64,000 nt of DNA from Thalassomonas sp. RHCl1 (lineage in GTDB: Bacteria > Pseudomonadota > Gammaproteobacteria > Enterobacterales > Alteromonadaceae): contig NZ_CANDNZ010000001.1 of NCBI RefSeq assembly GCF_947387555.1, positions 682,001-746,000 on the forward strand, read 5' to 3'. Positions within the stretch are counted from its first letter, which is position 1, and each line of letters begins with the position of its first letter. The translations under genes were made by a program, and so were the position numbers. The notes below the pieces were generated by a model, which saw only the letters and a program-made list of their open reading frames with translations, was not told where the DNA came from and did not search any database. This document shows positions 60,570 to 64,000 of the stretch, piece after piece.

Positions 60570-60775
60570 GGGGGACGATTTAGCATCAGCGGTTCAGAAT
60601 GTGGGCAATTATGTTACATCTTCCGGCGTGAGTTCAAGTTTAAGCGCTAGCTGCGCCGGGTTTTATTGTTACCGTTTTTTTCTGTTTGCCCGGCGGGGAA
60701 ACAGAAAATTTATTGGCGTATTGTTTCAGAATAAGAGATCATAAAGAAAACCCCTTATAAAACGAAAGCTTGACC

Positions 60776-61423
60776 ATGAAAGAACTCAAGAATTATTTTG
60801 CCTTACTGATTTTATTTGCCTTTTTATCCGGTTGCTCCAGCGCCTACTATTCGGCGATGGAAAAAGTCGGTATCCATAAGCGGGATATTATGGTGGATCG
60901 GGTGGAAGAAGCGAAAGATTCGCAGCAGGAGGCCCAACAGCAGTTTGCCAGCGCCCTGGAGCAGCTGTCGGCGTTGATCGCCTTTGATGGTGGTGACCTG
61001 CAAACCCAGTATGAATTGACCAGCGAGCAATATGAAAACAGCAAAAGTGCTGCCGAGGAAGTGGGGGCGCGTATTGCCGCGGTGGAAAATGTCGCCGATG
61101 CCTTGTTTGACGAATGGCATGAAGAGTTAAGCCTGTACTCCAGCGTTAAATTAAGACAGCAAAGCGAGCAAAAATACAAGGAAACCCAAAGACGTTATAA
61201 CAGCCTGATCAAGGCGATGCATAAGGCTGAAGACCGCATGCAGCCGGTTTTGGTGGCCTTGAAAGATAATACCTTGTATTTAAAACATAACCTTAATGCC
61301 AAAGCCATCGGCGCACTGCAGGGGGAATATCAGAGTATTAAGGAAGATGTTGAAGTGCTGATCAAGGAAATGAACCAGGCGATACAGCAGTCGCAACAGT
61401 TTATTGATTTACTCAAGAGTTAA
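60776..61423 (+). CDS. DUF2959 lipoprotein
   Basis: A 215-residue lipoprotein (LSGC lipobox) dominated by long alpha-helical coiled coils (about 35-210): VEEAKDSQQEAQQQFASAL, KAMHKAEDRMQPVL and KDNTLYLKHNLNAKAIGAL. The latter two fit DUF2959. The ATG at 60776 is preferred to the TTG two codons before. The role is unknown; it is probably an envelope structural or stress protein. Confidence 0.85.
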   Translation: MKELKNYFALLILFAFLSGCSSAYYSAMEKVGIHKRDIMVDRVEEAKDSQQEAQQQFASALEQLSALIAFDGGDLQTQYELTSEQYENSKSAAEEVGARIAAVENVADALFDEWHEELSLYSSVKLRQQSEQKYKETQRRYNSLIKAMHKAEDRMQPVLVALKDNTLYLKHNLNAKAIGALQGEYQSIKEDVEVLIKEMNQAIQQSQQFIDLLKS

Positions 61424-61496: not shown

Positions 61497-61828
61497 ATGA
61501 ATAAATTAAGTTCACTCTTGCGGTCTTTCGTTGCGCCGGTTACTGCTATTTCACTGTTGACCGGCTCTGTATGCTCACAAACTAGTGACGGGAGCAAACC
61601 AAAATTTTCTACTAAAATGGCTGCTTATCCACCGCGGACTTGGCCGGTGGCGGCAAGCAGCAAACTACAGTGATCACCTTGCAACACGGCAGCGGCTGGG
61701 CATATGGCGACAATTTTTTCTTTATCGGCCATTTGAATGGTATTGATGAAGACAGTTTTAACTATAATGCGCTTTATGGTGAGCTTTATTTAAATTTCAG
61801 CTTGGAGAAAATGGGGCTTCATGTTTAA
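61497..61828 (+). pseudogene. Frameshifted, truncated Tsx-like outer-membrane protein gene
   Basis: Frame 1 starts MNKLSSLLRSFVAPV with a signal peptide and stops at 61673. From about 61625 the frame shifts, and the second frame continues ADLAGGGKQQTTVITLQHGSGWAYGDNFFF, a segment like the start of nucleoside-channel (Tsx-type) barrels, then stops after about 62 residues, where family members have 200 or more. A single-base indel near 61620-61640 plus 3' loss explains both. It is probably not functional. Confidence 0.65.
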
Positions 61829-62207: not shown

Positions 62208-62924
62208 GTGAAATTTTTTACCGCCGGGCTGTTCTTGTTAGCCCTTAGCCAAAGTTTTAATGCCGCTGCTGCCGCTAAGGTTAATTATCTTAATGTTGAC
62301 GGCGATAGTGTCCATTTTTCCACAGCTGAAGCCAAAAGCGCTGTCAGTCCTTCATGCGTGGTTGCTGATACCGATGACCGTTTTGCGGTATCCCTTAGAA
62401 CCGAAGCTGGCCGGGCCATGTATTCGCTGTTAATTACTGCTATGAGCAGCGATGTGCCCGTTACTGTCACCAGTGCTGCGGATTGCGGTGATGTTTTTGG
62501 TTTGGAGCGAGCGCAAAGCGTGAGTATTGCTCCTCCACAGACGGGACAGTGTAATGCTTTTTTAACCAGGAAGTCCGAGCCGAAAACAGTTACTTTTAAT
62601 GCGTTAAGCGAAAATAATGTTTGGTATACCGTGGTAGATGTCCAATCTGAACTATTAGCTTACGAAATAAATTTTGTTGCAGGTCAATTTTCTAAGGGAG
62701 GTAAACAATTACGGGTGACGGTTGATGGCGAAGTTTTACCTGTAATGTCAAAAAATTATTCTACTAGTACTGTTTATATGCGCTATGCCAGTGAAGTCAA
62801 TGGTATCCCTGCTATTCATGCAAAAAAATCGTTAAAGGTTGAAATCCTGCGTTCGGATGTTTCCGATGGTAACAGGGTCACGACCACGGTTGGTTATGCC
62901 TTGGTGGACTCTGGGTGTAGTTAA
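62208..62924 (+). CDS. Secreted protein, tandem family member 1
   Basis: A 238-residue exported protein starting with GTG (an in-frame ATG upstream is followed by a stop); GGGTGA lies upstream. The signal peptide ends near NAAAAA. An N-terminal module of about 90 residues (YLNVDGDSVHFST, SPSCVV, RFAVSLRTEAGRAMYSLLITAMSSD, ADCGDVFGLERAQSVSI) has two cysteines that could form a disulfide. The C-terminal 130 residues are unrelated to the next gene and have two cysteines (QCNA, SGCS). The pattern is like small cysteine-containing beta modules seen in secreted proteins of gammaproteobacteria. The function is unknown. Confidence 0.75.
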   Translation: MKFFTAGLFLLALSQSFNAAAAAKVNYLNVDGDSVHFSTAEAKSAVSPSCVVADTDDRFAVSLRTEAGRAMYSLLITAMSSDVPVTVTSAADCGDVFGLERAQSVSIAPPQTGQCNAFLTRKSEPKTVTFNALSENNVWYTVVDVQSELLAYEINFVAGQFSKGGKQLRVTVDGEVLPVMSKNYSTSTVYMRYASEVNGIPAIHAKKSLKVEILRSDVSDGNRVTTTVGYALVDSGCS

Positions 62925-63023
62925 TTGATTTTATAAAACCAATAAAAGTTAAATAAGGTGCTCTTGTGTCATTACTTGTTAAGAGAACCCCGTTAAAATC
63001 TATCAATTGAAGTAAATAATTTT

Positions 63024-63797
63024 ATGAAGATACAAAGCATAATTATCTCATTTCTAGCGTTAATCAGTCAGTTATTTTCTGCTAATGCCATGGCTGCCGC
63101 TAAGGTCAGCTATCTTAATGTTGACGGCGATAATGTCCATTTTTCCACAGCTGAGGCAAAAAGCGCTGCCAGCCCTGCCTGTGTTGTGGCTGAGACCAAT
63201 GAGCGTTTTGCGGTATCGCTTAGGACCGAAGCGGGACGGGCCATGTATTCGCTGCTTATTACCGCCATGTCCAGCGATCAACCCGTAACCGTTGTCAGCG
63301 GCTCAGACTGCGGTGATGTGTTCGGGCTGGAGCGGGCGCAAAGTGTTAGTATTTCGCCGGATGTTACCAACGAAGCAGGTGGTGCTAAATCTCTGTACTT
63401 ATATAAAGGGGATGGTGTGACTAAATTAGGGCGCATTATCAATATGGGAACAACTGAAAATAAGTTTTATTATCAACCGGTCGACAGTGAGGTTGAAGTA
63501 AGGCAATACACTAATTCACAACTGATTTCCAATATCGGTAGTATTTATTATCAAACCAATGACTGTACCGGTACTGCCTATATCGCCGACAACAAATATA
63601 TAGGTTCACATGGTACCTATAATGATGGCAAGTTATTGACGAGAATCGGTGGCAGATTATCAGTTATTACTTCATCATATTTAACGAATAGCGGTCAATG
63701 CGGGACTATTACCCCAAAATATATGAATTTATATGGAGTTAGTCCATATATAGATTCATTATGTGGTGACGCTGCCTGTATTATCAGGGAAGAGTAA
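63024..63797 (+). CDS. Secreted protein, tandem family member 2
   Basis: A 257-residue protein with a signal peptide (cleavage near AMAAA) and the same N-terminal module as its neighbour (YLNVDGDNVHFST through RAQSVSI, about 85% identical by eye, also at DNA level). After RAQSVSI the sequence differs completely: a Tyr/Gly/Asn-rich C-terminal half with four to six cysteines (NDCTGTAY, GQCGTI, LCGDAACIIREE). It lies 100 bp after member 1 on the same strand. The function is unknown. Confidence 0.75.
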   Translation: MKIQSIIISFLALISQLFSANAMAAAKVSYLNVDGDNVHFSTAEAKSAASPACVVAETNERFAVSLRTEAGRAMYSLLITAMSSDQPVTVVSGSDCGDVFGLERAQSVSISPDVTNEAGGAKSLYLYKGDGVTKLGRIINMGTTENKFYYQPVDSEVEVRQYTNSQLISNIGSIYYQTNDCTGTAYIADNKYIGSHGTYNDGKLLTRIGGRLSVITSSYLTNSGQCGTITPKYMNLYGVSPYIDSLCGDAACIIREE

Positions 63798-63800
63798 CTT

Positions 63801-64000
63801 ATGAATAAATATCTGTTATTTGTTTCAAGCTTTCTTGTAACGCTTATTTCTATCAGTCCTGCACGGGCAGCTGCTCAGGTCAGTTATCTCAATGTTGATG
63901 GCACAACTTTAGTCTTCTCCACCGATGAAATTAAAACCTTTGTCAGTCCAGGCTGCGTTTTAAGTGATTATGCCGAAAATTGGGCTCTGGATTTAACCAC
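63801..64000 (+). CDS. Secreted protein, tandem family member 3 (3' truncated by window)
   Basis: Starts 4 bp after member 2 ends. The visible 66 residues show a signal peptide (cleavage after ARAAA) and a more diverged copy of the module (QVSYLNVDGTTLVFST, SPGCVLSDYAENWALDL). It continues beyond the window. Confidence 0.75.
   Translation, partial: MNKYLLFVSSFLVTLISISPARAAAQVSYLNVDGTTLVFSTDEIKTFVSPGCVLSDYAENWALDLT

Follow-up and report, generated by a model that had tools for sequence, protein, structure and literature searches.

Three consecutive genes for secreted proteins at the right-hand end of the window (the whole stretch of 64,000 nucleotides analyzed, which spans 682001-746000 on contig 1 of a genome of 7.56 Mb) were found to belong to a wider family, in which a constant N-terminal module either is followed by a C-terminal part that has been exchanged or has changed fast, or stands alone, often just upstream of a large carrier gene. 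The module-only proteins group apart from the two-part proteins, the family is linked to SpvB/Rhs exoproteins, and the module itself occurs within some of those giant proteins. The reading to which we give about an even chance is that of an exported accessory system tied to, and partly built from, SpvB/Rhs exoproteins, in which the module would dock reshuffled recognition heads onto a stalk of Rhs origin.

The features of the locus are collected in Table 1; signal peptides were assigned by eye. As a preliminary description of this DNA had held, the three plus-strand open reading frames have a module in common: a W2 query of the same genome returned both W1 (E 1.6e-48) and W3 (E 1.9e-20), well outside what chance would give. 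The module, described as about 90 residues long, is 86% identical between W1 and W2 over 87 amino acids and 46% identical between W3 and each of them. Its two cysteines do not vary in alignment A2, whose 77 rows come from 84 module segments; of the seven left out as divergent or cut, one has a single cysteine and six have two to four. The C-halves of W1 and W2 are unrelated, as had been stated (17% identity over 127 aligned residues, global score -4). The account of the third member was borne out in that the gene crosses the window edge, but there is no third fusion: extension to the right of 64000 showed that W3 extends 136 bases beyond the window and is 111 residues long, so that the third member is the module alone, and that the 927-residue carrier comes next. 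The intergenic gaps W1/W2, W2/W3 and W3/carrier are 99, 3 and 113 bp. The gene upstream of the block is presumably DUF2959-like, and between it and W1 lies a short frame (61640-61828) that looks by eye like a fragment of an outer-membrane channel gene. Immediately downstream of the carrier, a TonB-dependent-receptor-like gene is seemingly in pieces, again by eye (L004:8332-10300, equivalent to window 67331-69299, outside the window).

Table 1. Features of the window locus, numbered from the first base of the window
Feature	Position	Strand	Description
Flanking gene, outside the system	60770-61423	+	Syntenic anchor in the four genomes searched within the genus
Block absent from congener G061	61632 to ~66966	.	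Takes in most of the carrier gene
W1	62208-62924	+	GTG start, 238 aa; signal peptide, module and C-half of its own kind
W1 module	62271-62531
W1 C-half	62532-62921
W2	63024-63797	+	ATG start, 257 aa; signal peptide, module and type-B C-half
W2 module	63096-63356
W2 C-half	63357-63794		Type B, four conserved cysteines
W3	63801-64136 (window edge 64000)	+	Module only, 111 aa; L004:4802-5137
Carrier	64250-67033, beyond the window		Fibronectin-like, 927 aa; ends ...TELLGFPVV...

The observation proved to be larger than first noted. Searching the genome of origin with W2 gave 12 module genes in six loci at E below 1e-5 (two more matches, at E 0.03 and 0.17, were left uncounted): three in the window locus, two in C10, four in C15 and one each in C8, R1 and R2, with a carrier gene adjoining them in all six. 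The three two-part proteins of C15 have three different ends. In both R1 and R2 the carrier is followed by a module protein whose end is YD-like, then by a Fic protein and a Rhs protein of ~1430 aa. Identity between the two Rhs proteins is 56-57% in the first 500 residues, 80-84% over 500-1310 and 24% beyond, a pattern known from polymorphic toxins. The intervening Fic gene (L022:10116-11192, paired with L023:10197-11267) has no evident signal peptide; the L022 copy matches PF02661 and PADLOC SoFic.

In the family sample, 12 of 196 genomes matched at E 1e-4, from 10 of 52 genera, and the distribution within genera was patchy (1/9, 2/5 and 2/4 genomes); one family genome, G017, was unmatched at first and was matched by the wider A2 profile. 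That profile matched 14 of 394 order-sampled and 11 of 369 class-sampled genomes, the window's own being counted in both. Matches outside the family were open frames of 75-179 aa, with the sole exception of a 787-aa protein (L113:7855-10218) that carries the module at its C terminus (702-787) and also matches 3-keto-disaccharide-hydrolase and laminin-G-like/lectin-superfamily domains; this placement fits an attachment or glycan-binding role, which the module may have there. When 27 loci around A2 matches were taken, all but L104 from outside the family, a Rhs/SpvB-like giant frame was found by motif among the neighbors in seven, six of these outside the family, and Pfam confirmed it in the one scanned (L101). 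No such frame was present among the neighboring genes listed for the other loci, and in two of the 27 (L120 and L123) the module was not recovered by the frame scan. Because the giant frame occurs in only seven of the 27 loci, the Rhs link is regarded as frequent and not general.

An HMM search of the module left W1-W3 without a Pfam or NCBIfam match above cut-off. The closest candidate is DUF5992 (PF19454), which is of similar length and which was matched below threshold by three of ten stand-alone relatives in an agreeing register (E 0.03-0.08; best 14.7 bits against a gathering cut-off of 23.8) and by two of the 77 A2 rows at E up to 0.1. It is unlike the module in that these scores lie under the curated cut-off and that W1-W3 have no match to it in Pfam. 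The term DUF5992 was absent from the open-access papers searched, and among the open-access titles and abstract openings listed no account of this gene arrangement was found. Other weak Pfam matches scattered over the 77 rows (best PKD_6, E 0.0029 in four rows) were set aside, and the best hit of a PDB profile search with the module (E 0.54, unrelated name) was taken as chance. No relative was found in pattern scans of genome contigs and viral contigs, nor by tblastn of plasmids and phages. Structure models of W1 and W2, built from alignments of the three window sequences, reached pLDDT 43 and 37, too low for fold assignment. In one protein (L071:8388-9620), two modules stand in tandem ahead of the C-part.

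Altogether, 83 module proteins were collected from 33 loci in 12 genomes, 30 of them module-only and 53 with a C-part. The 53 C-parts fell into 11 blastp clusters (25, 7, 7, 4, 3 and 2 members and five singletons). The C-half of W1 is one of the singletons, and that of W2 belongs to type B (25/53), in which one Asp, three Gly and four Cys are invariant and mean column identity is 29%. Cluster c2, with seven members, is the Rhs-linked form and includes L069 and L070. Six profile comparisons were made among the C-parts, and one of them joined two clusters, the L078 C-part resembling cluster 3 with a probability of 58.6%, so that the 11 clusters stand for fewer real families, at least seven. The other five gave probabilities of 0.1-1.4%: type B did not join with W1, cluster 1 or cluster 4, nor did cluster 1 with W1 or L064:13888. 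At most a short stretch around a VDGE-like motif is common to W1, L064:13888 and cluster 1. A single diverged C-terminal fold, tried as an explanation, receives no support from these five pairs, although the folds could still be alike.

The two L062 members, 2 of the 53 C-parts, have a fibrinogen/intelectin-like C-half that is found in neither W1 nor W2. They match the fibrinogen-like YCDxxxxGGGW domain family NF040941 at 75.6 and 74.7 bits against a cut-off of 30 (E 2e-21), the one scanned in Pfam matches PF00147 (E 3.8e-7, 30.6 against a cut-off of 22), and a PDB search returned intelectin-family (X-type) lectins at E 1.6e-7 and 3.8e-7; W1 and W2 are unlike both groups. For the C-halves of W1 and W2 and for most others, database profile searches identified no relative. 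The best PDB hits of type B (E 2.3), cluster 1 (E 0.17) and the W1 C-half (E 0.41) were taken as chance, and cluster 4 had no match. An L021 member scored 14.6 bits against DUF1554, under the Pfam cut-off of 27.5, and L064:13888 matched a toxin B-subunit model with 13 bits where the cut-off is 203 (E 0.066), which was treated as noise.

Gene pairs, the module tree and a syntenic locus indicate that the ends are exchanged or change fast beside a constant module. Fifteen gene pairs were compared for 5′/3′ identity, and in two of them the DNA is nearly identical through signal peptide and module and then diverges abruptly. In L055:4867/9345, nucleotide identity in 15-codon blocks is 96-100% to residue 105, then 67-69%, falling to 33-51%; in L059:8778/12251 it is 87-100% to residue 120, then 67% and 31-69%. 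W1/W2 and three C15 pairs have modules 86-93% identical with unlike signal peptides and unlike ends. Two other pairs show no clear break (L062:8355/9527, module 68% and C-half 64%; C15a/C8a, 70% and 52%).

A module tree of 83 rows and 88 columns was built by a quick method that left many forks unresolved. On the 46 two-part rows outside cluster c2, genome of origin required 16 changes, against 26-33 in 200 shuffles, while C-class required 17 against 17-21 (mean 20.1). With c2 included (53 rows), C-class required 18 against 24-28, that is, it followed the tree. Modules thus track the genome, and ends hardly track the tree once c2 is left out. The distinction between module-only and two-part proteins required seven changes against 11-17 on the core 70 rows and eight against 16-28 on all 82, and module-only rows form several groups apart from two-part rows with a few exceptions, such as L065:9990.

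In congener G095 the syntenic locus comprises a carrier of 927 aa, a two-part gene and a frame of 123 aa that matches the module; relative to the window, two neighboring genes are 91 and 95% identical, the module 89%, the carrier 62% and the C-half 38%. In congener G061 the block is gone and a decayed stretch matching the 3′ end of the carrier remains, which is best read as the scar of a loss by deletion. The block is also absent from congener G013.

Some of the carriers resemble SpvB/Rhs exoproteins in motifs at their ends. A same-strand frame of at least 450 aa follows 16 of the 30 module-only genes at -7 to 125 bp, overlapping in five of the 16; seven others are followed by other frames, six by another module gene, and one has none in the stretch. 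The tail TxL[LM]GxP ends all six carriers of the genome of origin, as judged by eye. A motif near the N terminus, W[LIVY]xx[VMLH]xx[YF], was present in 15 of 113 frames of at least 450 aa in the first locus set; the 15 count one piece of DNA twice, and one of them, in L077, continues into SpvB. In L073, a 2889-aa fn3-SpvB-Rhs frame occupies the same place downstream of module genes and has, by eye, a similar N-terminal stretch. The carrier tails are graded from clear Rhs-core starts (L078, L104 and L055) through short ones in the window genus to faint ones (G043), carriers of several genera, G043 among them, having no clear Rhs tail; PF03527 was matched in three of ten carriers scanned, always under cut-off. 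The carriers would be Rhs exoproteins reduced to their N-terminal stalks, more conjecturally so where the tail is faint. A 174-aa mini-carrier (L104:3080-3604) resembles the start of its neighboring frame of 2301+ aa and ends in a Rhs-core start.

Rhs repeats or core were found in linked or fused loci L022, L069, L070 and L073, and by eye in L023. The L069 and L070 frames, both from congeners and each of ~2.5 kaa, run from the module into SpvB, FG-GAP and RHS repeats. That of congener G095 (L070:9104-16636, 2510 aa) ends in an Ntox43 domain (E 2.2e-16), and a 150-aa frame 9 bp after it could be an immunity gene. In PMC3482391, SpvB/β-propeller/Rhs exoproteins are treated as the TcdB/TcaC-type export class of polymorphic toxins. 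The present system shares with them the signal peptide, SpvB, FG-GAP and Rhs, the module forming the N-terminal part of L069 and L070 or adjoining such genes. It differs in that the window proteins have no SpvB, Rhs or toxin match, Pfam finding no Rhs/YD repeats or core in W1-W3 or the window carrier, and in that carriers keep Ig/FN3-like repeats and, in some cases, an N-terminal motif, while no more than a trace of Rhs core is left.

Docking, display and recognition are what we infer from this arrangement. The module would be a docking domain, the module-only protein a fixed subunit sitting on the carrier, and the two-part proteins would plug in through the same module, each presenting an interchangeable head at the cell surface or on the stalk derived from Rhs, where the heads might recognize a range of partners, for example glycans, prey, hosts or phages. 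Diversity would come about when the 5′ part is duplicated or converted while the 3′ half is replaced or diverges fast. Recognition heads are favored by the breaks within pairs, the tree statistics, the G095 locus, the position of 16/30 module-only genes just ahead of a large frame, the carrier tails (6/6), the L069/L070 fusions, the lectin-like L062 head and the C-terminal module of L113. Counted against them are the pairs without a break, the C-classes that follow the tree when c2 is included, the exceptions among module-only rows, the carriers without a Rhs tail, the low-pLDDT models, the Ntox43 end of L070 and the C-halves that matched no relative. More tentatively, and rather doubtfully, the module may be a general socket, the module-only subunit on a decapitated Rhs exoprotein stalk taking several two-part proteins as a reshuffled panel of heads; the module might then be a ring-forming OB-fold like AB5 B subunits, an idea on which the models (pLDDT 43 and 37) and the PDB search (best E 0.54, unrelated name) described above bear.

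The preliminary description had likened the layout to a constant module with varying payloads. The secreted module, the 11 C-part clusters and the Rhs linkage uphold the layout, but toxic payloads in the small proteins are unsupported. A polymorphic toxin set, with the module as the vehicle that brings toxic C-halves to competing cells, would account for the constant N-part with exchanged C-parts, the patchy distribution (12/196) and the break at the end of the R1/R2 Rhs proteins. The Ntox43 end of the module-bearing SpvB-Rhs protein makes the link to polymorphic toxins real; it places the module in the polymorphic-toxin world, though the small C-halves are not thereby toxins. W1-W3 have no toxin match in Pfam, NCBIfam, PHROGs or PADLOC, none of the small module proteins scanned matches a toxin family above cut-off, one head is lectin-like, 30/83 members are module-only, and the short gaps leave no room for immunity genes at the window locus. 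We consider this explanation improbable, and the arrangement looks more like interchangeable recognition heads than a toxin set.

That the small proteins are secreted to serve the Rhs exoprotein and its stalk as chaperones or assembly partners, their C-halves merely matching different carriers, is also unlikely, if a little less so. This would explain why a large carrier or SpvB-Rhs gene comes directly after module-only genes, which even overlap it (5/16), why stand-alone relatives in other families adjoin SpvB/Rhs-like frames, and why the module is fused N-terminally in L069/L070; it leaves unexplained the fast change of the C-half relative to the module at the G095 locus, the lectin-like head and the presence in L020 of three two-part genes, each with a different end, ahead of a single carrier. 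Variable surface antigens or decoys against phages or predators, with no specific ligand and diversity itself selected, agree with the 5′/3′ breaks and with the low identity of type B around its invariant Cys/Gly/Asp frame, but neither the lectin-like family in one class nor the separate grouping of module-only proteins suits them, and they are the least probable of the readings considered.

Constant N-parts with interchangeable recognition C-parts are known from shufflon PilV-type tips and exchangeable phage tail-fiber heads. The recognition-head reading resembles them in this layout and differs in that every variant here is its own complete gene. If it is true, small secreted partners accompany Rhs/SpvB exoproteins as a cohort, part of which would have become a recognition system that diversifies and uses headless carriers as its stalks. 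Testable objects are the one module, the carrier tails, the head set, the congener without the block, and adjacent pairs with nearly identical modules and different heads. In L055, between two two-part genes with near-identical 5′ parts, lies a stretch (L055:5622-9156) that by eye holds a truncated-looking module-only gene followed by an ATPase-like gene and transposase-like frames.
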